Source: a virus. Taken from it: a stretch of 33,714 nucleotides of DNA. The notes below the pieces were generated by a model. It saw nothing but the letters and a program-made list of their open reading frames with translations. It was not told where the DNA came from and made no database searches. The stretch is taken from the IMG/VR virus record IMGVR_UViG_3300023116_000166, positions 1 to 33,714 of that record; one strand, given 5' to 3'. The translations under genes and the position numbers were made by a program. Shown in pieces: positions 2,282 through 33,418 of this stretch. Within the stretch, counting starts at the first letter, position 1, and each line of letters starts with the position of its first letter.

Positions 2282-2668
2282 ATGAAGAACATAGCCGTAC
2301 CATTTAGGTTTACGGGTGGGCGTGTTGCCGCAACTACGAACACTGACATCATCGCTCGTCAGAAGATCGTCGATGCCTTGACAACTGCGCCCCCAGAACG
2401 GTTCGGCCTCCCTAACTACGGAGCCAATCTCTACTCCCTGCTATTTGAGCCAATCGATGAACTCGTCGAATCCGATTTCAAGATTGATGCTATTATGGAA
2501 GTACATGACCGGGTGTCTGGAGTTACCATCCACGATATCCGTATCAGGCAGAACGAAATCGATAACAGCACTGCGGACATCTACGTTTACTACTCGTTGC
2601 CACTAAGCCCAGCACAGTCGTTTACCTTTACCGTATCTAATACCTTGACCGAGGAAAGTCCGCTCTGA
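2282..2668 (+). CDS. Baseplate wedge protein, gp25/W-like
   Basis: The 128-residue protein has the features of the T4 gp25/P2 gpW baseplate family: an N-terminal strand with FRFTGGRV, then 'IIARQKIVDALTTAPPERFGLPNYG' -like sequence in which the PxxR..PxYG core is conserved, then LLFEPID, and a C-terminal beta region. Members link the baseplate wedge to the sheath and tube at the proximal tail end. The next two genes are J-like and I-like, the standard W-J-I order of contractile tails. The final codon overlaps the next ATG (TGATG). The length fits the family. Confidence 0.85.
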   Translation: MKNIAVPFRFTGGRVAATTNTDIIARQKIVDALTTAPPERFGLPNYGANLYSLLFEPIDELVESDFKIDAIMEVHDRVSGVTIHDIRIRQNEIDNSTADIYVYYSLPLSPAQSFTFTVSNTLTEESPL

Positions 2669-4146
2669 TGGCATTTGATTATTCCAGCCGAGATTACGCA
2701 ACGATCAAGTCCGACCTCTTATCACGTGCTCGGCGTATTGCCCCCGAGTGGACTGACCGTGACCCCTCTGACTTCGGCATGGTGCTCGTTGACCTCTGGG
2801 CACAGATGGGCGACGTTCTTCATTACTACGTTGACCGCGCTGCTGGCGAAGCCTTACTTCCCACTGCAACTCAGCGTGAGTCTGTCTTGGCGTTTGCCAA
2901 CCTGTTCGACTACACCCCTAGCGGACGTACGAGCGCCGCAGGGACGGTGACTCTCCGTAATAGCAGCACTGCCGATACCACCGTCAATGACTACACAAAA
3001 CTCATTGCACGCTATGACGAGTCGACGTATCAGGCGTACATTCCCGAGGGGGCGACGATAACCGCTGGCTCTACGGCTACGTTTACTGTGTACGAAGGTT
3101 TTATAGTCAACTCTCCCGCTGAGACCTTGACTAACTCCGCGTCTGGCCGTGGTTCGCAGCGGTATACGTTATCTAACGACGCTGTTGTACGTAGTTCCCT
3201 CGTAGTCACCGTCTACGAAGACGGCGTAACTGCTACTGAGTACCGCCGCATTGATCGCCTGTCTAATGCGACTGCTGGCGACCGGGTGTACAGCGTGCGT
3301 ACTACCGCCACTGGCTCAACAGAGATTGTGTTCGGAACTGAGGTGCGTGGCTTTATCCCGCCCACCGGCTCTACTATTACTGCTGTTTACGCCTATTCCA
3401 GCGGGGCCTCTGGCAATTTACCGGCTAACAGCATTACCGCCTTCAGGGATGCCGCACCAGAAGGTGTGACCATTGTTTCATCGTCTGCTCTATCCGGCGG
3501 AGTCAACGAGGAGGCAATCTCCTCTATGAAGAACTCCATCCCGGCTTTTGCTTCAGCGCAGAATCGTGCAGTTACCCAGTTTGATTACGTGAACCTTGCG
3601 TTGGGCATTGACGGCGTCTCAAAAGCGGCAGTGGAGTACACCCCTAACCCCGCTGGAGGTGCCTCAGCCGGTAACGCCAGCGTGACCGTGTACCCGCAGG
3701 TCAATCGGTCAGCGGATTACCTGACTACCGGTGATACTTCGCAGACCGTCAGTGATTCGGTACAGGCGCAGGTAGTGACCGCTCTGCAACCTCGCGCAAT
3801 GCTCGGCATTGACGTGGTGTGCGCCCCCACGGTTACTTGGGACACGATTGACCTGACTATCACGGCATATTTATCAGATAATGTTGTCGCTCTATACGCA
3901 AAGCGTGACATCGAGACTGCTGTAGATAATTTGTTCAGGTTTGATAACGTGTACTTTGGTCAGACCATGTCGTTGGGTCAGTTTTACCGAGCCATCATGA
4001 GTGTTTACGGTGTCAATTACGCGACCATCAGCGTCTTCGATAACGACGGATCTAGCGTGGAAGAATCCATAACTGTTGATCCGTTGAATCTCCCCAAGAA
4101 GGGAACGGTGGTCGTTACCGTATCTGGCGGCATCACCGGTACGTAA
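2668..4146 (+). CDS. Baseplate J-like protein
   Basis: The 492-residue protein has the N-terminal signature of the J/gp6 family: DYATIKSDLL, DPSDFGMVLVDLWAQMGD and a following helical region with 'TATQRESVLAFANLFDY'. The middle is beta-rich with Thr/Ser-rich strands, and the C-terminal part includes VVCAPTVTWDTIDLTI, typical of the J-like second domain. J-like proteins form the outer wedge ring of contractile-tail baseplates. It follows the W-like gene with a one-base overlap and ends four bases into the next start. This gene is the strongest evidence that the phage has a contractile tail. Confidence 0.88.
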   Translation: MAFDYSSRDYATIKSDLLSRARRIAPEWTDRDPSDFGMVLVDLWAQMGDVLHYYVDRAAGEALLPTATQRESVLAFANLFDYTPSGRTSAAGTVTLRNSSTADTTVNDYTKLIARYDESTYQAYIPEGATITAGSTATFTVYEGFIVNSPAETLTNSASGRGSQRYTLSNDAVVRSSLVVTVYEDGVTATEYRRIDRLSNATAGDRVYSVRTTATGSTEIVFGTEVRGFIPPTGSTITAVYAYSSGASGNLPANSITAFRDAAPEGVTIVSSSALSGGVNEEAISSMKNSIPAFASAQNRAVTQFDYVNLALGIDGVSKAAVEYTPNPAGGASAGNASVTVYPQVNRSADYLTTGDTSQTVSDSVQAQVVTALQPRAMLGIDVVCAPTVTWDTIDLTITAYLSDNVVALYAKRDIETAVDNLFRFDNVYFGQTMSLGQFYRAIMSVYGVNYATISVFDNDGSSVEESITVDPLNLPKKGTVVVTVSGGITGT

Positions 4147-6089
4147 TGGCACGAGTATCATTCACCCTCCGTAAGACCGGTATTGACCGGGGTTCTTACG
4201 CACGTTATGACATCGATGTCTATAACACAGCGGCGTCTGCTGGCAATGCCGCCTCCGCTGGCACATGGGTTGTCGATGACACCGAGGGATCAAGAGACTT
4301 TGACGTCGCCCTCAGGTCAGATGGCTACTCTATCCCACCCAACGAGTTCGTTGAGAGTTTCCTTGAGGCTAATGCGGTCGCCTACGGTGTTGTAGAGATC
4401 GAGTGGGGAGCAGATTTCCCGGGCACTGATCTAGTCGAAGCCCCCACCGCTACCGGGGCTATCTTGATTTATTCCCCAGACGGACAACCCGCCACCGTTA
4501 CGTCGGGTACGGTGCTCTCGGAATCGAGCACCGAGTTCTTCTACGAGCACACCGGGCTAAGTCAGGGCAGATGGGCTTATTACACGCTCTTTGTGAAGTA
4601 CGAGTCAACCGTCGCAGAGACCTACTATGAGCCTGCCGCCTCTGTCGAGGTGTTAGTCCCGTACAACTACGGGTCTACTTCTCTGTTGTGGCGACGCCTG
4701 CCGCAGTATTACCGAGAGTCCGACATTAGTATCGGTGATTACATCGACTCAGCGTCTGACTACGCCAATATCGAGTTGGGAGTCCTCCCACCGGGTAACG
4801 TCGTCGGCCCCCTTTACAAGTTCCTGTCCATATTTGGTTTTGAGATGGATTACGTACGTACCATGCTCGATTACGTCATGGTCTCTCGTGACCCTGCTGA
4901 GTCCAATAGCGAAACCCTTGACGCCATTGCTTACACGATTGGTGTGGGCCTCCGCACCGGCATCAGTAACACGGAGCGCATGAGGGCACTGCTTGATGAC
5001 ATTGGGTATTTGCGTCGCTCTAAGGGCACCTTGGAGGGCATTACCGGTATTGCTAGGGCCATTGCCGGTTCGGAACTTGAGATTGACCAAGACAATCGCA
5101 CCATGAAAGTGTTCGCTCAACGAGTGAACTACATCACCGACCCAGAGGACGCCACCGGGCTGGTTACGCACCGACCCGCTCATAAGGTCGAGGCCGTACG
5201 CCCAACATATGCTATGGGAGCATATGACCCGACAACTTATGTTGCCGGTAACAGCGCCACATATCCTTCCTTAGGCTCTATTAGCGCTTACACACCGGGC
5301 ATGTATTGGACTTCTGCCTCGGCTACCACTTTTGAGGGGCTTCCTGTTGGGGTCGGGGATTACATCGTTGCGTATGACGACGGAGGGTCTACCGCCTTCG
5401 CCGTGCATGGCAACGACTTTGCCGCCACCAACTACAGCGCTTATACGACCTACACGGTTGCTGGAACGGACTACACCCCCAATAGTTCCGGGGCTTCGGT
5501 GGGCATCACGCACGTCATGTTCCACATCGACTGTCCGATACCCGTTCAGCAGGCGGACCAAGTTGCCTTCTCTGTTCACAGCGCTATCGGCACGTCTGGG
5601 TTGAAGTGGGTGCGGCTGGTCAATGAGGCGGGAGACGTGGTGGGTTGGTCTGAAGGTACCACCCGTGCTGGGGATTCCCCCGCCGCACAGGCTGTCGCCG
5701 CTACGAACTTGTCTGGAGATGAGTGGACTATCGTATTCATTGAGTTCTTAGTGGATCTCAGCACCGTGTCGACTTATCAGTTGAAGTACCTGCTGGCTGA
5801 GCGCAACCTTCTGGGAGAGTACTTCGACGGGTCGTTTACTCGTGGTGGGTGGATTCTCGATCCTGCTGGCAACAGCACCAAGGACTATCTGTGGTCCAGC
5901 GAAGGCAGTAATAACGGCAACGCCTACGAGTCGATATCGGTGTACTCCGAGGACTATCAGCGCACTCGCTCTATCGTCAACAACCTTCTCGTCGGCGCGT
6001 TGCCGGTCACGGTTGCTGACTACTACACGTTTACTGCGTTCAACGCCATCCCCGGCATGGATGCCATCGACACGTACTTGACGCCTTAG
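4146..6089 (+). CDS. Tail protein I-like, fused to a fibre-like C-terminal region
   Basis: The 647-residue protein has about 175 N-terminal beta-rich residues, then the tail protein I core (about 178-330: LWRRLPQYYRESD, YKFLSIFGFEMD, then SKGTLEGITGIA). Phage gpI proteins sit in the baseplate and connect fibres. The C-terminal ~300 residues look like a virion beta-sandwich; EYFDGSF near residue 558, a DYLWSS segment and 'SISVYS' form a set seen in many actinophage minor tail proteins. P2 gpI is only about 180 residues, so this is a much enlarged, probably fused version that may contact the receptor. A promoter-like sequence overlaps its 3' end. Confidence 0.75.
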   Translation: MARVSFTLRKTGIDRGSYARYDIDVYNTAASAGNAASAGTWVVDDTEGSRDFDVALRSDGYSIPPNEFVESFLEANAVAYGVVEIEWGADFPGTDLVEAPTATGAILIYSPDGQPATVTSGTVLSESSTEFFYEHTGLSQGRWAYYTLFVKYESTVAETYYEPAASVEVLVPYNYGSTSLLWRRLPQYYRESDISIGDYIDSASDYANIELGVLPPGNVVGPLYKFLSIFGFEMDYVRTMLDYVMVSRDPAESNSETLDAIAYTIGVGLRTGISNTERMRALLDDIGYLRRSKGTLEGITGIARAIAGSELEIDQDNRTMKVFAQRVNYITDPEDATGLVTHRPAHKVEAVRPTYAMGAYDPTTYVAGNSATYPSLGSISAYTPGMYWTSASATTFEGLPVGVGDYIVAYDDGGSTAFAVHGNDFAATNYSAYTTYTVAGTDYTPNSSGASVGITHVMFHIDCPIPVQQADQVAFSVHSAIGTSGLKWVRLVNEAGDVVGWSEGTTRAGDSPAAQAVAATNLSGDEWTIVFIEFLVDLSTVSTYQLKYLLAERNLLGEYFDGSFTRGGWILDPAGNSTKDYLWSSEGSNNGNAYESISVYSEDYQRTRSIVNNLLVGALPVTVADYYTFTAFNAIPGMDAIDTYLTP

Positions 6090-6107
6090 TAACTAGGCTG
6101 GTACAGT
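6078..6107 (+). promoter_or_regulatory. Promoter candidate, TTGACG-N18-TACAGT
   Basis: TTGACG (6078-6083) is separated by 18 bases from TACAGT (6102-6107), which is preceded by TGG, giving an extended -10. The -35 lies inside the end of the baseplate gene. It would transcribe the gene at 6138 with a short leader containing AGGAGAG. Confidence 0.55.
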
Positions 6108-6137
6108 TCCTCCTCCCAACGAGCCAGAGGAGAGAAG

Positions 6138-6929
6138 ATGGCTACCCACATCATCATGGGCACCGGCCCGTGCCCGAAAGACGCAGTGACGGAGGCGCTC
6201 CGAGATGCCCTGACCGACGGCGACACCCTCGCCTTCGCGTGGTCCGGCTCCCCCGTGCCCGAGTCCATCGGAGCCGTGTACGACTACGTTCTCGACCACG
6301 AGATCGACTTCGTGCTGTTCTACACCGATGAGCAGAAGGTCCACAGCGCCTTCCGTGAGGCCGACCACGGTACCGTTCAGAAGGTCCGCAACACCTACGC
6401 CAGCCTGATGAAGGCCCTCGACGGTAACGTCCTGTTCCTCTGGGACGACGAGGAGGAGGATCTCATCAACTCCGTCTTCGACGTGGTTCCCGATGCCACG
6501 GTGCTGGAGTTGAGCAACGGTCTTGCCCCCATCATCATCGCTGAAGACATTCCTGAGGTCGAGACACCTGCCCCCGTGGTTGAGGAGGAGGAGGAGGAAG
6601 ACGACTACTCCTACACCCGTGAGGAGTTGGAGACCGCCACGGCTTACGTCGTGAAGAGGTACGGGGAGCGCATGGGGTGCGAGGCCAAGACGAAGGCTGG
6701 CATCATTGCGGAACTGTTCCCCGAGGACGACACGCTCGTCACGGAGGAGATTCCCGTGGTGCGCCCTGCCGCAGAGGCACCGGCACCCCCCAAGGGGCTT
6801 TTGGCTGAGTTGGATTCGGTCATTGAGTCCTTCTTCGACCACGCTCCCGAGACCCCCGATACTGCCATGGCTCGTCTCAAGTTGCACGAGGCTCGTATCT
6901 GGGTGACCCGAGTTATCGAGGGTCGTTGA
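6138..6929 (+). CDS. Unknown protein with acidic hinge, single-gene unit
   Basis: The 263-residue protein is not firmly recognised. Residues 1-135 look like an alternating beta/alpha Rossmann-type fold (MATHIIMGTGPC, FVLFYTDEQ, VLFLWDDEEEDL) in which a nucleotide- or nucleic-acid-binding role is possible. An acidic stretch VEEEEEEDD near residue 150 acts as a hinge. The C-terminal ~110 residues are helical and end MARLKLHEARIWVTRVIEG, a helix resembling the last helix of many small actinophage proteins. It has a good RBS (AGGAGAG at 6129) and is bracketed by two promoter-like sequences, so it may be expressed on its own. Codon use is strongly biased toward C-ending codons, unlike the baseplate genes before it. 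Confidence 0.6.
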   Translation: MATHIIMGTGPCPKDAVTEALRDALTDGDTLAFAWSGSPVPESIGAVYDYVLDHEIDFVLFYTDEQKVHSAFREADHGTVQKVRNTYASLMKALDGNVLFLWDDEEEDLINSVFDVVPDATVLELSNGLAPIIIAEDIPEVETPAPVVEEEEEEDDYSYTREELETATAYVVKRYGERMGCEAKTKAGIIAELFPEDDTLVTEEIPVVRPAAEAPAPPKGLLAELDSVIESFFDHAPETPDTAMARLKLHEARIWVTRVIEGR

Positions 6930-21295: not shown

Positions 21296-21571
21296 ATGGC
21301 AGAGCAAGAAGACGTTATCAAGGTGTCCGGGTCTAGTAATCCGTCATCTGTTGGGTCAATTCTGGCCCGCGCTATCGTCGCAGGTCAGGCCCCTAAAATG
21401 CGGGCCATCGGTGCGTCAGCAGTGAATCAAGCCTCCAAGGCGTGCGCTATCGCTAGAGGCTTCGTCGCCCCTCGTGGTATCGACCTGACCTTCATCATCG
21501 GATTCGATGACATTCAAGGCGATTCAGGCGAAACTATCTCGTCTATGACGTGGAAACCGGTCGCACGCTGA
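21296..21571 (+). CDS. SpoVS-like (Alba-type) protein
   Basis: The 91-residue protein has the hallmark core of the SpoVS family: residues 37-57 (AIGASAVNQASKACAIARGF) and VAPRGIDLTFI after it, with an N-terminal VSGSSNPSSVGSILAR. Length matches Bacillus SpoVS (86). SpoVS has an Alba-like fold, and thus may bind nucleic acid; in Bacillus it affects sporulation and division, and homologues exist in many non-sporulating bacteria. Its gap upstream has a GAGG RBS (21286-21289) and a TAGGGT -10-like hexamer (21263). Its presence next to a resolvase suggests a role in phage DNA organisation. The call is strong; the phage function is unknown. Confidence 0.85.
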   Translation: MAEQEDVIKVSGSSNPSSVGSILARAIVAGQAPKMRAIGASAVNQASKACAIARGFVAPRGIDLTFIIGFDDIQGDSGETISSMTWKPVAR

Positions 21572-21577
21572 CCTTTG

Positions 21578-21586
21578 TGTTACCAT
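21578..21586 (+). promoter_or_regulatory. Extended -10 for a probable leaderless transcript
   Basis: TGT-TACCAT (21578-21586) fits TGN-TANNNT. Six bases follow before the ATG at 21593, which puts the transcription start at or next to the A of the ATG. No Shine-Dalgarno sequence is present (CCATAGCGAT precedes the ATG), consistent with leaderless translation. The site closely resembles that at 26378. Confidence 0.5.
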
Positions 21587-21592
21587 AGCGAT

Positions 21593-21754
21593 ATGGAAAA
21601 CAAGAGGTACAAGAACGTGTTTCGGCTTCCGAGTGGGCGAGAGATTCCCTCGGCTATCGACCCCGTTACTGGAGAAGGACCCGTGAAAGTCAGACACTTT
21701 AGTGAGGTCCCCGATGGCATCGAGCAAAAAGATCCCGAACCCCGCCCACAGTAG
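21593..21754 (+). CDS. 53-residue protein, possibly leaderless
   Basis: The protein MENKRYKNVFRLPSGREIPS... ends DPEPRPQ and is polar and Pro-rich, probably disordered except for a short N-terminal strand. There is no RBS, and the extended -10 above lies six bases upstream, so it may be translated from a leaderless message. Its 3' end overlaps the next ORF (start 21714). It opens the block of small disordered proteins. Function unknown. Confidence 0.5.
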   Translation: MENKRYKNVFRLPSGREIPSAIDPVTGEGPVKVRHFSEVPDGIEQKDPEPRPQ

Positions 21755-22547
21755 AACTGTCGAACCCACTCCTACTCGTGGGTCTCTCAGTGCAAACGAG
21801 GTCGCCAGAATCCACTCAGGTGAAGTGGCTCGGCAGAAGTACCTCTTTGGTCGCCCCCTTAGCCCCACCCCGGCCTCTGTCACCGAGCGCAGTGATGCTC
21901 AGGGCACCATGCGTACCTTTTCCCTTGGAGATACGCTGAAGGCTGGCGAGGGCGAGTACTCACAGGGCAACATGATGCGTAGGCAGGTCAACATGATCGC
22001 TACGCCCGCTGGCGTTACCGGGTCTACCGAGCGTGGTGATCGGGGCCTTTTATACGGCGAAAGCAAGCAAGTAACAGGTCTTGTAGCCCGTGCTGATGCC
22101 CGACAGTCGGCGTTAGAGCACATGATACGTGACACTGGTGCTCCTGAAAAGTCCTCTGTTGGGTCGAACGTCCGTCTCGTTGACCGTGGTATGCGTGACT
22201 GGACTGGAAGAACCTCCAGCGCTCGGGAGGCTCTCACATCCCAACGCCCCCGTACCATGGAGTTGCCGAGCGGTAATGCCATTCCGTCTGCGCTCAACCT
22301 CGTCAGCGGTCAGGGGCCGGTCAAGGCAGATTTGCAGTTGGTTGCTGAGGGTAAGGAAGAGATGAAACAGAAGGCTCTGGAGGAGCGCCAGAACACCAAG
22401 AGCCGTCGGACGAAGACCCGTTCTCTCAAGACCGAGACAAAGGCTGACCCCGCTCTAGCGAAGAGGCAGAAGAAGCAAATCAAGGCCCATGCGGCCAATA
22501 CGCCGGTAAACCAGCGCCCCGGTGCTGAATCGCCACGCCCCCTCTGA
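21714..22547 (+). CDS. Basic, low-complexity protein, unknown
   Basis: ATG at 21714 has AGTGAGG at 21700-21706 as RBS. The 277-residue protein is polar and likely disordered: Ser/Pro/Arg-rich N-terminus, central polar helices (MIRDTGAPEKSS near 141), and a strongly basic C-terminal ~70 residues (KEEMKQKALEERQNTKSRR, then KRQKKQIKAHAAN). Such tails often bind nucleic acids. No fold or enzyme motif is seen. It is the largest member of the first half of the disordered block and may be packaged or DNA-associated, which is an inference from composition only. Confidence 0.55.
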   Translation: MASSKKIPNPAHSRTVEPTPTRGSLSANEVARIHSGEVARQKYLFGRPLSPTPASVTERSDAQGTMRTFSLGDTLKAGEGEYSQGNMMRRQVNMIATPAGVTGSTERGDRGLLYGESKQVTGLVARADARQSALEHMIRDTGAPEKSSVGSNVRLVDRGMRDWTGRTSSAREALTSQRPRTMELPSGNAIPSALNLVSGQGPVKADLQLVAEGKEEMKQKALEERQNTKSRRTKTRSLKTETKADPALAKRQKKQIKAHAANTPVNQRPGAESPRPL

Positions 22548-22568
22548 GCGGATGAGTAAGGTATAGAT

Positions 22569-22814
22569 ATGGCTAGCCCCGGTAAGTCCTACCCAGACCG
22601 TTCTCATGATGAACGCCGGGTGCCAGCAAGGCCCCCGGGTTCTGCTCCCAACGAACTGCGTCCCATCAGGCAACAGGGTCCAACCCTCAGTCCTGAGCAG
22701 ATTGCTCGGCTAGAGGAACTCGACGCCATGGATGCGCTGATGCGTGATACTGGCGGTAGTAGCCCCATATCACAGGTGAGTGACTATCTGATACGGCGTG
22801 ATAAGCGCTACTAA
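22569..22814 (+). CDS. 81-residue Pro/Arg-rich protein
   Basis: The ATG follows TAAGGTATAGAT: TAAGGT at 22557-22562 is a possible -10 with the same six-base offset as at 21593 and 26393, while AAGG could equally be an RBS. The protein begins MASPGKSYPDRSHDERRVPA and has a Pro/Arg-rich disordered N-terminus and a short helix SPEQIARLEELDAMDALMRD. The MRDTG peptide near residue 58 is close to IRDTG in the preceding protein. No family recognised. Confidence 0.5.
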   Translation: MASPGKSYPDRSHDERRVPARPPGSAPNELRPIRQQGPTLSPEQIARLEELDAMDALMRDTGGSSPISQVSDYLIRRDKRY

Positions 22815-22819
22815 GGTCT

Positions 22820-22957
22820 ATGAATAACACCCCAGACATCGAGCAGGAGCCTCTTGAGGAGGACGAACTGCTCAACAAAGTACCTAACAAATACCGGGAT
22901 CTATACGACTCGGATGACTTTGAGAAGTTCTCAAAGGGGAAGGATTGGGACTGGTGA
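22820..22957 (+). CDS. 45-residue acidic protein
   Basis: MNNTPDIEQEPLEEDELLNK is followed by VPNKYRDLYDSDDFEKFSKG and ends DWDW. It is very acidic and short, unlike the basic neighbours; it may balance charge or bind a basic partner. Five bases separate it from the preceding stop, so translation is probably coupled. It overlaps the next GTG (GTGA). Confidence 0.5.
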   Translation: MNNTPDIEQEPLEEDELLNKVPNKYRDLYDSDDFEKFSKGKDWDW

Positions 22958-23118
22958 TCATCCAACGCCCACCCAACCGATATATAGCCGACCGAGATAG
23001 GCAAGAGCGTGCTGCCAAAGATGCTGAGGGTCCTCGCCCTATTTCTACGATTGGTGGGGGCCGTGGTGGCTCTCTCATGGCTTTCACACAGGCCACTAGC
23101 ACCGCTAACGGGCGATGA
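22954..23118 (+). CDS. 54-residue basic protein, GTG start
   Basis: GTG at 22954 overlaps the upstream TGA. The purine-rich GGGGAAGGA at 22936-22944 is its RBS. The protein MIIQRPPNRYIADRDRQERA has a helix of alternating charges and a Gly-rich turn (STIGGGRGGS). It ends in an ATGA overlap. Too short for the usual gene-length cut-offs, but the RBS and overlaps support it. Function unknown. Confidence 0.5.
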   Translation: MIIQRPPNRYIADRDRQERAAKDAEGPRPISTIGGGRGGSLMAFTQATSTANGR

Positions 23119-23606
23119 ACCAGCAGACCTTCAGCAACTGGGCCGGGGGATATGACCCAGCCGGGGGAGAGACGATGCCCGTCCTCGGTCCCGCTCCGGT
23201 CTTCCGTGATGCTAAAGATCAGCGCCTCGCCGCCTTCGGCGCTACGCCTGATACCCAATATCCCGATGGGTATCTGGGGACTATGGATAGCAATAGACGG
23301 CAGGATAAGTTGCTTAGCGCCGTCAAGCGTCAGAACCACCGCTCATACAGCCGAGGTGTCCATAAGGGCGAGCGAGTCAACCCCGGTGACTACCTGTGGC
23401 CTGAGGAGTTCAACCCCATGACTGGCTTAGAACTTCAGGCTGTAGGGCAGAAGTTCGCACCTCCCGGTGCTGAGCCGATCAGGCTCACCAATGATGGAAA
23501 GGCTGGCCCCCGAGGTATTCCCCGAGGACTAGACCGCCCCCAGCAAGAACAAATAGATGTGCAGAGGCAGTCAATGCTGAAGCGCTTGGTACCAAACTGG
23601 AGATAA
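23115..23606 (+). CDS. 163-residue protein, unknown
   Basis: Starts in an ATGA overlap. Sequence MNQQTFSNWAGGYDPAGGET is followed by a polar, Gly/Pro-rich chain with few hydrophobic clusters (RRQDKLLSAVKRQNHRSYSR, LELQAVGQKF) and a terminal MLKRLVPNWR. No motif is recognised. It resembles neither an enzyme nor a membrane protein, so a scaffold, internal virion or DNA-associated role is possible. Confidence 0.5.
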   Translation: MNQQTFSNWAGGYDPAGGETMPVLGPAPVFRDAKDQRLAAFGATPDTQYPDGYLGTMDSNRRQDKLLSAVKRQNHRSYSRGVHKGERVNPGDYLWPEEFNPMTGLELQAVGQKFAPPGAEPIRLTNDGKAGPRGIPRGLDRPQQEQIDVQRQSMLKRLVPNWR

Positions 23607-23609
23607 GAC

Positions 23610-23804
23610 ATGCCGTGGACCGCATCCGACGCTAGTAAGCACACCAAGAAGGCCGATACTGCCACTGAAAAGCGCCAGTGGGCTAAGGTGGCAAATGCTA
23701 CTCTGAAGAAAACCGGTAATGAGGGGCGGGCTGTCCGCACCGCTAATGCCGCAGTGGGAGGCGCTAAGAAGAGCGTCGCCAAGAAACGTGGAGGAAAGAA
23801 GTAA
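23610..23804 (+). CDS. 64-residue basic protein of a widespread small family
   Basis: MPWTASDASKHTKKADTATE is followed by KRQWAKVANATLKKTGNEGR, AVRTANAAVGG and a Lys-rich tail. The arrangement 'MPW...A..HTKKA....rqWakvAN..L..tGdEg.AiR.ANa' is one I know from many bacterial and phage genomes, without a known function. It is basic enough to bind nucleic acid. It overlaps the next gene by one base. Confidence 0.65.
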   Translation: MPWTASDASKHTKKADTATEKRQWAKVANATLKKTGNEGRAVRTANAAVGGAKKSVAKKRGGKK

Positions 23805-24175
23805 TGCCACACTCACCCGAGCATATGAGGACTGGTGCCAACGAGGCCCGCATCGACTCCAAGTACGCCGCAAAGTGGGGAGCCGAAATGGGCGTTCCCG
23901 CTCAGCACGTGTCTGGCCCCGACAACACCTCGTGGTCTGGCAAGGTGCTTGGCCGTCAGGGCAACCAGTTGTTCTTCTCCGCAGAGTCCACTGGCGGTGG
24001 GGCTTCGGATTCCCACGCCATCGAGTTCGACACCTCTGCCCATAACGACGCATCGTTTGCCAAGAACTTCGTTGGTAAGCAGTTCAACGTCGAGGGTAAG
24101 CGCAGTATGACCCCCAACAAAGAGGGTGGTTGGTCTAGTCGAATGGATCACAGCATCTACCCCAAGAAGGACTGA
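23804..24175 (+). CDS. 123-residue protein, unknown
   Basis: The ATG shares its A with the upstream stop (TAATG). The protein has a helical start (PEHMRTGANEARIDSKYAAK) and a beta-rich middle (GNQLFFSAESTGGG, HAIEFDTSAH, KNFVGKQFNVEG). It looks like a small beta-rich domain and is the best-folded member of this block. No family recognised. The RBS (GTGGAGGAAAG) is strong and lies in the preceding gene's Lys-rich tail. Confidence 0.5.
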   Translation: MPHSPEHMRTGANEARIDSKYAAKWGAEMGVPAQHVSGPDNTSWSGKVLGRQGNQLFFSAESTGGGASDSHAIEFDTSAHNDASFAKNFVGKQFNVEGKRSMTPNKEGGWSSRMDHSIYPKKD

Positions 24176-24180
24176 ACTTC

Positions 24181-24387
24181 GTGAGACGGCCTATTAGATC
24201 CATCCACGGACGCATCGCACAGAACATGCGTGATGCTCGGGCCAATATCGGGGAGAGCATTGCCGCTCAGAAAGCCGATAGTGCCGCATACCGGGAGAAG
24301 GAAGCCGCACAGGCCGCAGAGGATCAGGCTAAGGTCATACCGTGGAGCGAAGTGCTCGCCAACCCTGAACAGTTCAAGGACAGATAG
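24181..24387 (+). CDS. 68-residue helical protein, GTG start
   Basis: GTG at 24181 with AAGG at 24167-24170 as a distant RBS. The protein is basic at the N-terminus (MRRPIRSIHGRIAQNMRDAR) and then a long charged helix (AAQKADSAAYREKEAAQAAE). It likely forms a coiled coil. It ends VLANPEQFKDR. Function unknown. Confidence 0.5.
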   Translation: MRRPIRSIHGRIAQNMRDARANIGESIAAQKADSAAYREKEAAQAAEDQAKVIPWSEVLANPEQFKDR

Positions 24388-24395
24388 GAAAAACG

Positions 24396-24680
24396 ATGGC
24401 TAAGGACATGAGCCAGTATGGTTCGCAGTTATTCAACATGATGGCTGACGCTCACCGTGCTCAGTACGGGGACGTACGTAACCACCGTGATCAGCCGGTT
24501 GCCCAGAAGCCGCACCTTCGCCATATGGATGAGCGCAGTGTTGCTCAGGCCCGTATGGACTACGAGGTGGGCGAGATGGAGGCCCGTGAGGCTGAGCAGG
24601 CAGGCAATGACAGCGCCTACAACGCCTACGAGGACAACAGCACTGACCATTACGACGACTACTCGGAAGGGGACTTCTGA
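24396..24680 (+). CDS. 94-residue acidic-tailed protein
   Basis: RBS AGGAAA precedes the ATG. The N-terminal part is polar and basic with a His-rich stretch (HLRHMDERSV); the C-terminal third is acidic and Asn/Tyr/Asp-rich (NAYEDNSTDHYDDYSEGDF). The protein is probably disordered. Function unknown; the charge reversal between its ends is typical of this gene block. Confidence 0.5.
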   Translation: MAKDMSQYGSQLFNMMADAHRAQYGDVRNHRDQPVAQKPHLRHMDERSVAQARMDYEVGEMEAREAEQAGNDSAYNAYEDNSTDHYDDYSEGDF

Positions 24681-24892
24681 TGGATGAGGCTAATCCGCAG
24701 GGGATGCCCCGCCCCCGTATCAAGACCACTCATAAGGGTTACTCTAACGAGCCGACTCCCAGTAGGTCACGCCCCATGACTTCTGTCCACAAGCGTAACT
24801 ACGCTGTGGGTGAGGGCAACGCCCCTAAGGGTATGAAGCGCCCTGTTGACCCCTCCACCGAGATCGTTATACGGGCGCTCAGGGAGGGCTGA
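24680..24892 (+). CDS. 70-residue disordered basic protein
   Basis: Starts in the TGATG overlap of the previous stop. MDEANPQGMPRPRIKTTHKG and the rest are Pro/Arg/Lys-rich with one short helix at the end (STEIVIRALREG). The sequence has no detectable domain. The next gene starts at the shared A of the stop (TGATG). Confidence 0.45.
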   Translation: MDEANPQGMPRPRIKTTHKGYSNEPTPSRSRPMTSVHKRNYAVGEGNAPKGMKRPVDPSTEIVIRALREG

Positions 24893-25191
24893 TGGCTCGT
24901 CCGTGGCAAACCCGTAGCGAGTATCTCGTTGACCTCGCTCTTGAAGGCGCACTTGCCGCTACTCCTGAGGAGTTGCGTGAGATGCGCCCGGTTGCCGCGC
25001 CCCAAAACCCCTTCCCAGAGCGTCGAGGCTTCGCTAAGCAGGTATGGGATATCTATGAGGTCATGAATATCGACCGCTATACCCCTTCGTACCGCTCTTG
25101 GGTGTCTGGTATGCCCGTTATGCCCAGTGTCATGAGTGACCAGTCGTGGTCTGGTACTGCTCGTAATGCGATGAGTGAAGGGACTTGGTGA
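24892..25191 (+). CDS. 99-residue protein, unknown
   Basis: Starts in a TGATG overlap. The sequence has a helical N-terminus (RSEYLVDLALEGALAATPEE), an aromatic centre (GFAKQVWDIYEVMNIDRYTP) and a polar end with repeated Ser/Met/Trp residues. It has more order than its neighbours. No family recognised. Confidence 0.5.
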   Translation: MARPWQTRSEYLVDLALEGALAATPEELREMRPVAAPQNPFPERRGFAKQVWDIYEVMNIDRYTPSYRSWVSGMPVMPSVMSDQSWSGTARNAMSEGTW

Positions 25192-25487
25192 TGGAACCGA
25201 ACAAGCCCTACGGAATCAACCCCCTTGAAGAGGGGCCGATTGACCCTGATCGAGCGTTCGCTCGTCAAACCCGTAACAGCGGTTACGAGGCTGGCATTGC
25301 CGGTTCGGAGGGGCGCAAGTTCACTCAAGACCCATATGCGGCTGGTGATGATCGCCTCAAGGCACGCCGCCGAGCGGAAGAGGCCCTCGACTGGAGTGGG
25401 AAGATTGGCTCTCGTGGGACTACCAGAAACACTCGCACTGATATGAACTGGGCTATCGCCCCGTCTGGTGGTGGTATCGGTGGCTGA
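25191..25487 (+). CDS. 98-residue disordered protein
   Basis: ATG at 25191 (TGATG overlap) has GAAGGGA at 25177-25183 as RBS; the upstream TTG and GTG codons are less likely starts. The sequence is Gly/Arg/Asp-rich (MEPNKPYGINPLEEGPIDPD, then RKFTQDPYAAGDDRLKARRR). It ends SGGGIGG, and the next gene begins inside its 3' end. Function unknown. Confidence 0.45.
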   Translation: MEPNKPYGINPLEEGPIDPDRAFARQTRNSGYEAGIAGSEGRKFTQDPYAAGDDRLKARRRAEEALDWSGKIGSRGTTRNTRTDMNWAIAPSGGGIGG

Positions 25488-26367
25488 TAATAAAAGAACC
25501 CGAACTAATCGCCGAGTTATGGATGACTCTTACGAAGCCGGTGGTCCGGCACGGGGCAGTGTCGAGGATCAAAAACTGGGTGTTAGGCCCATGGCTCTTA
25601 GAGGCTCGTTCCTGACTGCGCCTTCCGGTATGCAGTCGTGGGACGGCCCTTCTGGAGGAACGTCGGCACGGTACCCGGCGATGCCTACTACTGGGCCCTC
25701 GCCCGTCATTAGAGGTGTCGAATACGCCCCCAGCCAGCCTGCCTCTGGCCCTAAGGCTATGGCACAGTTTGTTGCTCCGAACTTCAACCGTGCCGGTCCT
25801 CAGGAAGTAAGGCCCACGGGGAACTTCTCAAAGTTCCTTACTCGCTTGGGCGCACTGGCCCCACTTCGTCAGGAAGAGGAGGAGGAACCAGAGGCAGTAC
25901 GAGAGGAAACACCACCTAAGACTCCCGATACGCCCATCAAAAAGGTTGATCCCGAGGGGCCTAAGGGCCGTCCCGAGGAGCCTAAGGGCGGTGAGCCTTA
26001 CCAGCCGACGCTGTGGGAGGACTACCGTGACGACCCCACCAACGATGCGCCCCAAGGGCAGATGAGCCTATTTGATGTCGCCGTGCCCAACGTCGTTCAG
26101 AAAACCCGCACAGATTTAGAGGCAAAGTACGGGGCACCGGGAAGCCAGCGTAAAGGACCCATGCCTCAGGGTATGGAGTTCCTAACTAGGGGTATGGAGG
26201 CGGCTGAGGCCAGTAAGAATCCGTTTGAAAGCCTTGACCCTGCCGTGATCGAAGCCGCAAAAAACATGGAATACCCCAACCGTGGCACCCAGTCGGTTAC
26301 TCGGCCTGTTCCTCCCCCCGCTAATCGTCCTCCCAACTCACGGAACGTCAAACGGGGCACCAAGTAA
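25480..26367 (+). CDS. Disordered Pro/Glu-rich protein with a clamp-box-like motif
   Basis: GTG at 25480 overlaps the upstream stop; GTG at 25468 is an alternative start. The 295-residue protein is Pro/Gly/Arg-rich with a Glu-rich stretch (QEEEEEPEAVREETPP) and an acidic, proline-rich centre. Residues 194-198 read QMSLF followed by D, close to the bacterial sliding-clamp-binding consensus QL(S/D)LF; a similar QPTLW lies about 19 residues earlier. A basic C-terminus ends NVKRGTK. It may recruit the host beta clamp or a phage homologue, or the match may be chance. It is the last gene before a promoter-like site. Confidence 0.5.
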   Translation: MADNKRTRTNRRVMDDSYEAGGPARGSVEDQKLGVRPMALRGSFLTAPSGMQSWDGPSGGTSARYPAMPTTGPSPVIRGVEYAPSQPASGPKAMAQFVAPNFNRAGPQEVRPTGNFSKFLTRLGALAPLRQEEEEEPEAVREETPPKTPDTPIKKVDPEGPKGRPEEPKGGEPYQPTLWEDYRDDPTNDAPQGQMSLFDVAVPNVVQKTRTDLEAKYGAPGSQRKGPMPQGMEFLTRGMEAAEASKNPFESLDPAVIEAAKNMEYPNRGTQSVTRPVPPPANRPPNSRNVKRGTK

Positions 26368-26377
26368 AGCCCCCCTA

Positions 26378-26386
26378 TGTTAGGAT
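26378..26386 (+). promoter_or_regulatory. Extended -10 for a probable leaderless transcript
   Basis: TGT-TAGGAT (26378-26386), then six bases, then the ATG at 26393. The surrounding sequence TGTTAGGATGCTGATATGG closely matches TGTTACCATAGCGATATGG at 21578. AGGA inside the hexamer could also serve as an RBS for 26393, so leaderless translation is likely but not proven. Confidence 0.45.
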
Positions 26387-26392
26387 GCTGAT

Positions 26393-26614
26393 ATGGCAGT
26401 AAATGAATCTCGCAGTATGAACGCTGATCTCCGTGAGGGAATCACCGATGGCATGGTCAAGAAGCCGAACCCTGACCGGGGCGGCTTCCCCAATGACAAC
26501 GCCGACGCTGGCTCGGTTCGGGCCACCCTGAGCGAGGACCTGTACGACACGGTTCCGGGCGCTAACCCCACTCAGGGTTACCACGCCGCCCGTGTTGCTG
26601 GACCTCCCCACTGA
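26393..26614 (+). CDS. 73-residue polar protein, unknown
   Basis: The protein MAVNESRSMNADLREGITDG is followed by a polar Pro/Asp/Asn-rich chain (KKPNPDRGGFPNDNAD) and a C-terminus QGYHAARVAGPPH. There are no hydrophobic clusters, so it is probably disordered. It is transcribed from an extended -10 six bases upstream, or its AGGA serves as RBS. The gene is followed by a palindromic operator-like site. Function unknown. Confidence 0.5.
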   Translation: MAVNESRSMNADLREGITDGMVKKPNPDRGGFPNDNADAGSVRATLSEDLYDTVPGANPTQGYHAARVAGPPH

Positions 26615-29262: not shown

Positions 29263-29586
29263 ATGGCAAACAAGATCGTAAAGAACAACAACCGCTCGCA
29301 GGTTCTGGCTGAGGCCGACGAACTCATCAACGGGGACCGGAACAACCAGTACGGCGAACCCACTGATGACTTCCGTAAGACTGCCGACCTGTGGTCCGTC
29401 TACCTCACCTCGGTGGCGAAGGCCCCCGTCACACTGCTTCCGCATGACGTGGCAGTGCTGATGATGATGCTCAAGGTCAGTCGTATCGCTTGGTCTCCGA
29501 ACAAGCGTGACAACTGGACTGACCTCGCTGGGTATGCCGCATGTGGGTGGGACTGCGTCGTGGCCGAGTCCCTCAATGACGACTAA
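29263..29586 (+). CDS. DUF6378-type phage protein
   Basis: The 107-residue protein has the characteristic pattern of this family: AEADELINGDRNNQYGEP, DDFRKTADLWSVYL, HDVAVLMMMLKVSRIA and DLAGYAACGW, the last two being the strongest signatures. The family is widespread in phages of many hosts; its role is not established, though it has been annotated as a nucleotide-related protein by some. Its 3' end overlaps the first WhiB gene by 11 bases. The ATG is preceded by the GATATGG-type sequence without a clear RBS. Confidence 0.75.
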   Translation: MANKIVKNNNRSQVLAEADELINGDRNNQYGEPTDDFRKTADLWSVYLTSVAKAPVTLLPHDVAVLMMMLKVSRIAWSPNKRDNWTDLAGYAACGWDCVVAESLNDD

Positions 29587-29944
29587 GCGCTGGGCTGACG
29601 ACGCTCTCTGCGCTGGCTACCACAGCGAGATGTGGTATCCGCCCCTGTTCAAGGAGGAGCGGACTGCCCCCGAGGCTCAGTACTACGATCTAGGCAAGTT
29701 GATCTGCGAGCACTGTCCCATTCAACAGGAGTGCGCCGAGCGTGGAGCCGACGAGGAGTACGGCATGTGGGGCGGTCTTACGCCTAAAGAGCGGAGGCTC
29801 AATAGACCCCGGCCCACGAAGACCTACCTGCCGTTGGATAAAATCAAGGTGCTTCCAAAGGCCGATCCAGACGTGCCTCTATTCGTCCCCGAACTGAGGC
29901 TGGAGGTCCGTAAGCATTTGAAGCGACGGCCACGGAAGAAGTAG
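29576..29944 (+). CDS. WhiB-family transcription factor 1
   Basis: ATG at 29576 (CAATGACGAC) gives 122 residues. Cysteines at positions 12, 44, 47 and 53 form the C-x31-C-x2-C-x5-C iron-sulfur site (DDALC, CEHCPIQQEC), and GMWGG (63-67) is the WhiB turn motif. The C-terminus is basic (RKHLKRRPRKK), consistent with DNA binding. WhiB proteins bind sigma factor and [4Fe-4S] clusters and control transcription. Phage members such as TM4 WhiB affect host cell division. This supports an actinobacterial host. Confidence 0.9.
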   Translation: MTTKRWADDALCAGYHSEMWYPPLFKEERTAPEAQYYDLGKLICEHCPIQQECAERGADEEYGMWGGLTPKERRLNRPRPTKTYLPLDKIKVLPKADPDVPLFVPELRLEVRKHLKRRPRKK

Positions 29945-29977: not shown

Positions 29978-30271
29978 ATGAGCGAAGAACTGTTCGACCA
30001 CTACGACAAGGTCTCTGACCAGTACGCACTGCCGATGCTGTTGCATCCCGAGAAGGATGTGCGCTGGAGGTCGGAAGCCGAATGTCGTAAGCATCCTGAG
30101 GTCGACTTCTTCTACGGTCCCACTGCCCCTGCTATCGCCATCTGCCAGAACTGCTCGGTCAGTGAGGCGTGTCTGAACTTCGCCGTCGACAACGAGATCT
30201 ACTACGGGGTCTACGGTGGGCTGTCCGGTAAGGACCGCAGGTGGTGGCCCATCCAGCAGGAGCCATCATGA
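29978..30271 (+). CDS. WhiB-family transcription factor 2
   Basis: The 97-residue protein has Cys36, Cys56, Cys59 and Cys65 (ECRKH, ICQNCSVSEAC) and GVYGG (77-81), so it is a second, divergent WhiB. The spacing between the first and second Cys is shorter (19 residues) than in the first copy (31). RBS AGGAG precedes the ATG. It has its own promoter candidate and overlaps the glycosyltransferase start (ATGA). The two WhiB proteins share only the motif residues, so they probably do different jobs rather than being recent duplicates. Confidence 0.88.
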   Translation: MSEELFDHYDKVSDQYALPMLLHPEKDVRWRSEAECRKHPEVDFFYGPTAPAIAICQNCSVSEACLNFAVDNEIYYGVYGGLSGKDRRWWPIQQEPS

Positions 30272-32898: not shown

Positions 32899-33192
32899 TC
32901 AGTCGAGATCAAAGATGATCTCCTCGGTAGCGAGGTCGTCCCCGTCCTCAAAGACGAGGCTGAACCCGATGCGGTTGAGGTCTCTGGCGACGTTGTAGAT
33001 GCCGTTGACCCAGAGCAGGACCGTCTCATCGAACTCCATGAGTTGGTCAGAGGGATCGTCCCAGTTCGGGTTGAAGTCAGACCCGACAACGATGTTGGTC
33101 GGAGTCACGTCGTCGTTGATCTGGTTACGCACCACGACGGTGATGAACTGGATGAAGCCCTCGGGGACACGTATGACACCGATATCAAACAT
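32899..33192 (-). CDS. 97-residue acidic protein, unknown
   Basis: The start MFDIGVIRVPEGF at 33192 has GAGGGG eight bases upstream; a longer version from 33231 would run deep into the neighbouring gene. The protein is acidic and beta-rich (FIQFITVVVRN, then NIVVGSDFNPNWDD). No family recognised. It overlaps the HicA-like gene by eight bases. It could be an antidote-like partner by position, but has no HicB features. Confidence 0.5.
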   Translation of the reverse strand: MFDIGVIRVPEGFIQFITVVVRNQINDDVTPTNIVVGSDFNPNWDDPSDQLMEFDETVLLWVNGIYNVARDLNRIGFSLVFEDGDDLATEEIIFDLD

Positions 33193-33418
33193 GCCTCTTA
33201 CCCCTCTTGTCTGTACTGAAGTCGAATCCATTCCGCTTCAGCATCGACCTGAAGTTCTTCCATGACCGGTACGAGCCGGTCAATGGCGAGAACACGCAGT
33301 GCCCATCTGGAGCCTGCCACTTGACGTGGTTGCCCCTCGTCACCGTGATGGTCCAGCCCCTCTTACGTGCCTCCTTGGCGATCTTCTCCATGTCCTTGTT
33401 GTTCATGCCGATAGCCAC
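33185..33418 (-). CDS. HicA-like dsRBD-fold protein
   Basis: GTG at 33418 is preferred because GAGGAGGA sits close upstream; ATG at 33406 is an alternative. The 77-residue protein has the HicA layout: KIAKEARKRGW, TVTRGNHVKW with His31 as the likely catalytic residue, a short central strand (HCVFSPLTG) and a C-terminal helix (RSWKNFRSMLKRNGF). HicA toxins cleave mRNA. No HicB-type antitoxin is adjacent; the phage versions may therefore be solitary regulators or host-acting nucleases. The call as HicA-like is moderate. Confidence 0.65.
   Translation of the reverse strand: MAIGMNNKDMEKIAKEARKRGWTITVTRGNHVKWQAPDGHCVFSPLTGSYRSWKNFRSMLKRNGFDFSTDKRGKRHV

Follow-up and report, generated by a model that had tools for sequence, protein, structure and literature searches.

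A conserved phage locus with a constant core of three probably disordered proteins and exchangeable neighbours

Introduction

Between positions 21593 and 26614 of a phage record from IMG/VR (IMGVR_UViG_3300023116_000166, analysed as one stretch of 33,714 nucleotides, hereafter the window) lie 15 open reading frames (ORFs), g1 to g15, all on the plus strand and tightly packed. An initial annotation, made from the letters alone, had described about fourteen small coupled genes here; the tight packing was borne out, and the number is 15. The block raises the question of whether these ORFs are genes, whether they recur in other phages, and what their products do. We found that the ORFs are real genes under purifying selection and that the block recurs as a conserved locus in other phages. 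Going beyond the initial annotation, it consists of a constant core (g6, g12 and g15) and variable members, and the conserved locus extends to a SpoVS-family gene directly upstream. The near-unchanging three-protein core, with the rest swapped from phage to phage, suggests proteins inside the virus particle.

Results

The locus in related phages

Homologues of the block ORFs were free of stops, and the ratio of nonsynonymous to synonymous substitution rates (dN/dS) was mostly 0.02-0.4 where measurable; the reading frames thus stood as genes. The four constant genes of the locus are listed here, with lengths in amino acids (aa).

21296..21571, plus strand: SpoVS-family gene, leftmost of the constant genes; wherever it is present it precedes g6
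23115..23606, plus strand: g6, 163 aa, core constant protein 1, at 72 loci by tblastn and 113 by profile
24892..25191, plus strand: g12, 99 aa, core constant protein 2, at 101 loci by profile
26393..26614, plus strand: g15, 73 aa, core constant protein 3, with the conserved start MAVNxSRSMNxDL, at 92 loci by profile

Gene order proved to be conserved in the related phages. In all loci examined, SpoVS, g6, g12 and g15 kept one order and one strand, and all four were found in 80 loci by profile search. Of the 75 loci with at least 7 kb of right flank, 71 carried g6, g12 and g15; the other four had g6 and g15, and three of these, from Streptomyces genomes, had a g12-like gene in place when inspected by eye. 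Relatives of g6 were present in 69 viral contigs, with 33 more recovered by a distant query and two close to the Streptomyces phage LuckySocke, as well as in six records of five Streptomyces phages and in four bacterial genome records, three of them Streptomyces genomes. They range from freshwater contigs through a second metagenome clade to the cultured Streptomyces myophages BRock and LuckySocke. BRock-like phage genes were also seen within 170-410 kb contigs of Streptomyces genome assemblies (L080, L081 and L082).

Since the loci had been collected through g6, a search with the capsid protein was used as an independent start that avoids this circularity. The trio g6, g12 and g15 was present in 6/6 contigs of at least 90 kb among the matches listed, and the three of 13 contigs that lacked g6 were all fragments of 44-50 kb. 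The trio looks like core gene content of the family without an annotated function. The capsid search returned at least 599 contigs of the lineage, so the phage family is abundant.

The upstream gene matched the SpoVS family (Pfam PF04232, E = 1.2e-19, 74 of 83 model positions), and the profile of this family matched PDB entry 2eh1 (E = 2e-17). In the Bacteroides phage BS162P1 and the faecal phage MT835482, whose major capsid proteins (MCP) are about 39-40% identical, SpoVS was present and the trio was not found. Because it occurs throughout the lineage and in these distant relatives, SpoVS looks ancestral in the supergroup. SpoVS genes outside the window were located at L143:9601-9885 and near position 10406 of L145.

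Conservation and predicted structure of the core

The dN/dS values against neighbours were 0.02-0.04 for g6, 0.04-0.12 for g12 and 0.15-0.30 for g15; for the remaining block genes they were mostly 0.1-0.4 where a value could be obtained. When four long relatives (68-110 kb) were compared with LuckySocke, the head genes ranked highest (MCP 51-61% identity, portal 51-56%, terminase 45-47%), followed by g15 (42-57%), g6 (38-45%), SpoVS (38-44%) and RecA (37-46%). Lower down were the tube (38-42%), Cas4 (36-40%), DNA polymerase (29-34%), sheath (30-32%) and baseplate J (28-30%). Between freshwater and Streptomyces phages, g6 and g15 thus come right after the head proteins and ahead of sheath, baseplate J and DNA polymerase, and g6 is one of the best-conserved proteins in the family.

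The AlphaFold model of g6 had no fold (predicted local distance difference test, pLDDT, 52.9; predicted template modelling score 0.19), and the strongly conserved stretch 47-84 was mostly below 50. Foldseek returned no structural match to this model, as expected at a pLDDT of 53. The g12 prediction (pLDDT 62.4) showed helices at the N-terminus only, with low confidence elsewhere. Strong conservation without a predicted fold is what would be expected of a protein that becomes ordered on a partner.

Composition of the block

The 15 block ORFs were compared with the 46 other called genes of the window. Their median fraction of the residues ILVFWMC was 0.185 vs 0.300 (p = 6e-8), their order-promoting fraction 0.214 vs 0.338 (p = 5e-7), and their combined Pro, Gly, Arg and Asp fraction 0.357 vs 0.244 (p = 7e-5); 14 of the 15, vs 12 of the 46, fell on the disordered side of the Uversky line (p = 5e-6). 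The described paucity of hydrophobic residues, richness in Pro, Gly, Arg and Asp, and disorder were thus confirmed, and the proteins are probably disordered, judging from composition. Overlapping starts and stops were also as described (GTGA/ATGA at g4/g5 and g5/g6; TGATG/TAATG at g7/g8, g10/g11, g11/g12 and g12/g13). Two other proposed patterns did not exceed chance. Charge sign changed between neighbours in 7 of 12 cases (p = 0.26; the sum of charge-density steps gave p = 0.04), and the recurrence of RDTG peptides dissolved into 21 shared 4-mers vs 20.3 in shuffles (p = 0.46), RDTG itself occurring in 5 non-redundant cargo proteins vs 2.6 in shuffles.

The statement that no known phage module matches was upheld, as the block proteins tested had no significant Pfam, PHROGs or NCBIfam match. 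Profiles of g6 and g12 had no match among PDB sequences. Weak Pfam matches of g2 (PBP_like_2), g6 (HTH_66) and g7 (TrbI) were below the curated cut-offs and were discarded. Also discarded was a weak tblastn match of g6 to a minor tail protein of Gordonia phage Clawz (E 0.02), because the matching motif is absent from that protein.

Variable cargo, cassettes and tags

The regions between the core genes held 827 cargo genes, which grouped into 294 clusters (154 with a single member); these counts depend on our own gene caller, which trims some starts, and the second-clade set also includes tail-fibre and lysis genes. Relative to flanking genes, cargo had a lower order-promoting fraction (0.23 vs 0.34) and a higher net charge (+3 vs -2).

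The contig G001 represents a phage almost identical to that of the window, with most shared genes 91-100% identical. The milder exceptions were the genes at 2668-6929 (78-83%), one 48-aa ORF (85%) and g1 (84%); the strongest divergence was in g13 (47%), g14 (30%) and g2, of which only a 35-residue piece at 50% could be aligned, without a nucleotide match. Nucleotide similarity broke off and resumed around g2 and around g13-g14, which indicates two replaced cassettes. The baseplate-region genes at 2668-6929 were the sole other divergent genes against the nearest relatives, G001 and G002 (77-84%).

Unrelated cargo bodies had N-termini in common far more often than internal pieces, with 12 pairs at a score of at least 45 vs 0 in either control. 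The classes of these N-terminal tags include HPxRxxxR (for example MAKGEDTSRHPARQV), RGGxGAGRGDNPH, MPHSPEHM (on g8 of the window) and MAHDHRMN. Among pairs of cargo proteins encoded between g6 and g12 (segment B), the first 25 residues were 52% identical vs 37% in the middle; in 44% of pairs, vs 2% of flanking-gene pairs, the N-terminus was ahead of the middle by 25 points or more. The relative G007 has genes with two of the tags far from the block as well. A linear motif, PxG[MI]xRP, was found in 15 non-redundant segment-B proteins vs 0.2 in shuffles and in 0/1282 control proteins; some of the 15 are mutually related, so they do not represent 15 independent origins.

In some relatives the gene at the position of g2 encodes more than 1000 aa, reaching about 1950 aa. 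Giants of 1792-1953 aa, largely disordered, lie directly downstream of SpoVS at L018:3817-9675, L069:3854-9697 and L009:4288-9663. All three embed GreA, the one in L009 with the N-terminal domain (E = 2e-15) and those in L018 and L069 with both domains. GreA was the sole domain recognised in the giants scanned, with no metallopeptidase, helicase or methylase domain. The g2 of the window is position-equivalent to these giants, to which it may be homologous. Two second-clade cargo genes, L085:14133-14558 and L089:15760-16095, appeared ADP-ribosyltransferase-like by eye, had no Pfam match and were not used as evidence.

The variable ORFs of the window are listed below. Window starts were checked by hand, since our gene caller placed the starts of g6, g8 and g14 too far downstream and missed g1 and g5.

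21593..21754, plus strand: g1, 53 aa, overlaps g2 by 41 nucleotides; 4 relatives at 82% or more
21714..22547, plus strand: g2, 277 aa, basic (+18), hypervariable cassette 1; position of the giant disordered proteins in relatives
22569..22814, plus strand: g3, 81 aa, variable cargo with a basic N-terminus; 96% in G001, 46% in G004
22820..22957, plus strand: g4, 45 aa, acidic (-8); several relatives have a small acidic ORF at the same place
22954..23118, plus strand: g5, 54 aa, basic, C-terminal motif PRPIS..GGGxGGxL; 16 relatives by tblastn
23610..23804, plus strand: g7, 64 aa, strongly basic (+13) cargo
23804..24175, plus strand: g8, 123 aa, cargo with the N-terminal tag MPHSPEHM and the body motif SAESTGGG..DSH
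24181..24387, plus strand: g9, 68 aa, cargo; dN/dS 0.28 vs L003, with few changes
24396..24680, plus strand: g10, 94 aa, acidic (-11) cargo; 100% in G001, with 3 synonymous changes
24680..24892, plus strand: g11, 70 aa, cargo with two PxG[MI]xRP motifs
25191..25487, plus strand: g13, 98 aa, hypervariable cassette 2; 47% identity in the near-identical G001
25480..26367, plus strand: g14, 295 aa, Pro-rich, hypervariable cassette 2; 30% identity in G001

A genuine repeat, LPSGxxIPSAxxxVxGxGPVK, is shared by g1 and g2 (20-residue motif, E about 1e-7). Many loci carry cognate small basic genes immediately before g6, where g5 stands in the window. The tag of g8 also occurs on unrelated bodies in L005, and its body motif occurs in L044 and L024. 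For g7 a single weak outside match was obtained, to the Methanosarcina virus MetMV (E = 1e-3).

Neighbourhood of the block

Baseplate genes occupy the left part of the window, among them the ORF at 2668-4146, whose homologue in relatives is LuckySocke gp98 (baseplate J). Next come replication genes, including a DNA polymerase I homologous to LuckySocke gp138, and RecA-like and Cas4-like genes, ahead of SpoVS and the block. Two tandem WhiB-family genes (29576-29944 and 29978-30271; Pfam E = 2e-12 and 2e-14) point to an actinobacterial host. A small HicA-toxin-like gene (33185-33418, minus strand; Pfam E = 1e-5, just under the curated cut-off) is part of a group of minus-strand genes at the right end.

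Upstream of g1 and g15 (21579-21595 and 26379-26395), TANNNT is followed after 6 nucleotides by ATG (TTACCATAGCGATATG and GTTAGGATGCTGATATG). By eye these elements look like leaderless promoters, and they were not reproduced in G004 or G007. The string GTTAnnAT before the same two genes was dropped as a late-promoter signal after no consistent pattern was seen in either relative.

Discussion

We favour, with a probability of roughly 45%, the reading that the block proteins are packaged in the virion and probably injected, working like the internal proteins of phage T4, with g6, g12 and g15 as a constant docking set. The phage belongs to a contractile-tailed family related to BRock and LuckySocke, and the block would be the virion-cargo locus of this family. 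The three core proteins, disordered and probably late, would bind a conserved head component and become ordered upon binding. Interchangeable disordered, mostly basic proteins would be co-packaged with the DNA, many of them by means of a short tag at the N-terminus. On infection they would pass into the cell, where host RNA polymerase, the nucleoid or defences may be the targets. Such packaging agrees with several features taken together: conservation close to that of the head genes, disordered and basic chains, swapped cassettes, tags and host-directed content. Late expression is suggested by neighbouring genes in relatives: in the Streptomyces phages the lysis genes come directly after the block, and in the second clade the locus itself contains tail-fibre, holin-like and endolysin genes. 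From a conserved locus near late genes we infer all the rest, that is, late expression, packaging, injection and targets. There is precedent in T4, whose internal proteins are packaged in dependence on a sequence motif and then injected (PMC9391042), and in Alt and the polyvalent proteins, which are also packaged and injected (PMC5512222). Of the roles offered in the initial annotation, internal head proteins fits best, given the lysis and tail-fibre neighbourhood, core conservation just below the head proteins, swapped cassettes and recurring tags; condensate formation and host takeover had little evidence specific to them.

In a bolder and doubtful version, loading would be modular. The three invariant disordered proteins would form a docking layer in the head, any disordered protein with one of several short tags at its N-terminus would be packaged and injected, cassettes would be exchanged, and the giant chains would deliver a GreA-like RNA polymerase factor at entry.

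Several points weigh against packaging and injection. The block lies far from the capsid genes, and SpoVS, RecA and Cas4 are similarly conserved, so conservation alone is no proof of a role in the head. Tag conservation may come from recombination at conserved gene starts, and a sorting role for the tags is accordingly conjectural. A T4-type cleaved tag lacks support, as no prohead protease was recognised among the ten LuckySocke head and tail genes scanned, where a divergent one might have escaped notice. Homology of the block proteins to any known internal protein was not found, and a literature search for virion proteomics of the family, or for SpoVS function in such phages, found nothing specific.

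The proteins might instead belong to the virion and stay with it, g6, g12 and g15 being extended staples that thread capsid, neck, tail or fibre while the variable proteins decorate the particle or aid fibre assembly. The extreme conservation of the core without an independent fold would suit staples, as would the location of second-clade tail-fibre genes between SpoVS and g6, and cargo variability resembles that of decoration or fibre proteins. We nevertheless regard this as unlikely, as tail proteins are far less conserved in the family (sheath and baseplate J, see above) and the GreA domains of the giant cargo would be hard to explain on the outside of a particle. Those same GreA-bearing members, with cassette turnover and half of the cargo clusters being singletons, would fit an arms race, and thus an accessory island of small regulators and inhibitors that are never packaged, joined by three conserved assembly or host-shutoff factors. 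Host-takeover genes are usually poorly conserved, yet g6 is among the best-conserved proteins and gene order is invariant, and a common N-terminal tag is unexpected for independent inhibitors; we hold such intracellular late or takeover proteins to be quite improbable.

It also seems very improbable that acidic and basic disordered proteins phase-separate with DNA, aided by the Alba-fold SpoVS, and organise phage DNA before packaging. The mostly basic, disordered cargo and the presence of SpoVS directly upstream in nearly all loci agree with condensation, but charge alternation was not above chance, no result here shows DNA binding, and the presence of specific, conserved motifs and of N-terminal tags points to defined partners, not bulk condensation.

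If the block proteins are indeed packaged cargo, they would represent a second route, besides that of T4, for loading proteins by N-terminal tags. They would also offer many candidates for counter-defence proteins and be an unusual example of proteins that are unfolded although strongly conserved. Five Streptomyces phages carrying the locus are already isolated and sequenced, which makes packaging simple to test.

Comparison with known systems

The host-takeover module of Bacillus phage SPO1 is a dense block of very small genes that are expressed early and poorly conserved. The window block is likewise dense, with many very small genes, but its locus has a strongly conserved core and lies near late genes in relatives.

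The likeness to T4 IPI, IPII, IPIII and Alt is one of manner of working only: small or disordered, mostly basic, variable proteins with shared N-termini and a presumed counter-host function (PMC9391042, PMC5512222). The block proteins scanned differ in having no significant PHROGs, Pfam or NCBIfam match. Otherwise different T4 internal proteins have a capsid-targeting sequence at the N-terminus in common; the block family has shared N-termini on unrelated bodies, for which a role in targeting is putative. We know of no T4 counterpart to the conserved three-protein disordered core. With the polyvalent proteins and the Dar and Ddr proteins of P1, the locus shares giant multi-part proteins presumed to be packaged with DNA, here the giants of relatives with their embedded GreA. 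These giants differ in consisting largely of disordered chain, and those scanned had no more than one recognised domain. Polyvalent proteins are defined by at least two disparate recognised domains per chain, whereas none was recognised in the window proteins and only GreA in the giants.

The closest counterpart is a homologous locus, in the same order and on the same strand, in LuckySocke, BRock (Borockvirus), Alone3, GiJojo and pSt2308 (gp174-gp180). In LuckySocke, SpoVS corresponds to gp174, g6 to gp177, g12 weakly to gp178 (27% pairwise identity; profile E = 2e-17, with gp178 in the training set) and g15 to gp180, and a gene of the same Zn-finger-like family follows the block. The Streptomyces phage block differs in that only two small genes separate SpoVS from g6 and a single one separates g12 from g15, and in having the lysis genes directly after it; all its genes are annotated as hypothetical. 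By its homology to LuckySocke gp174-gp180, the window block is a member of that undescribed locus.

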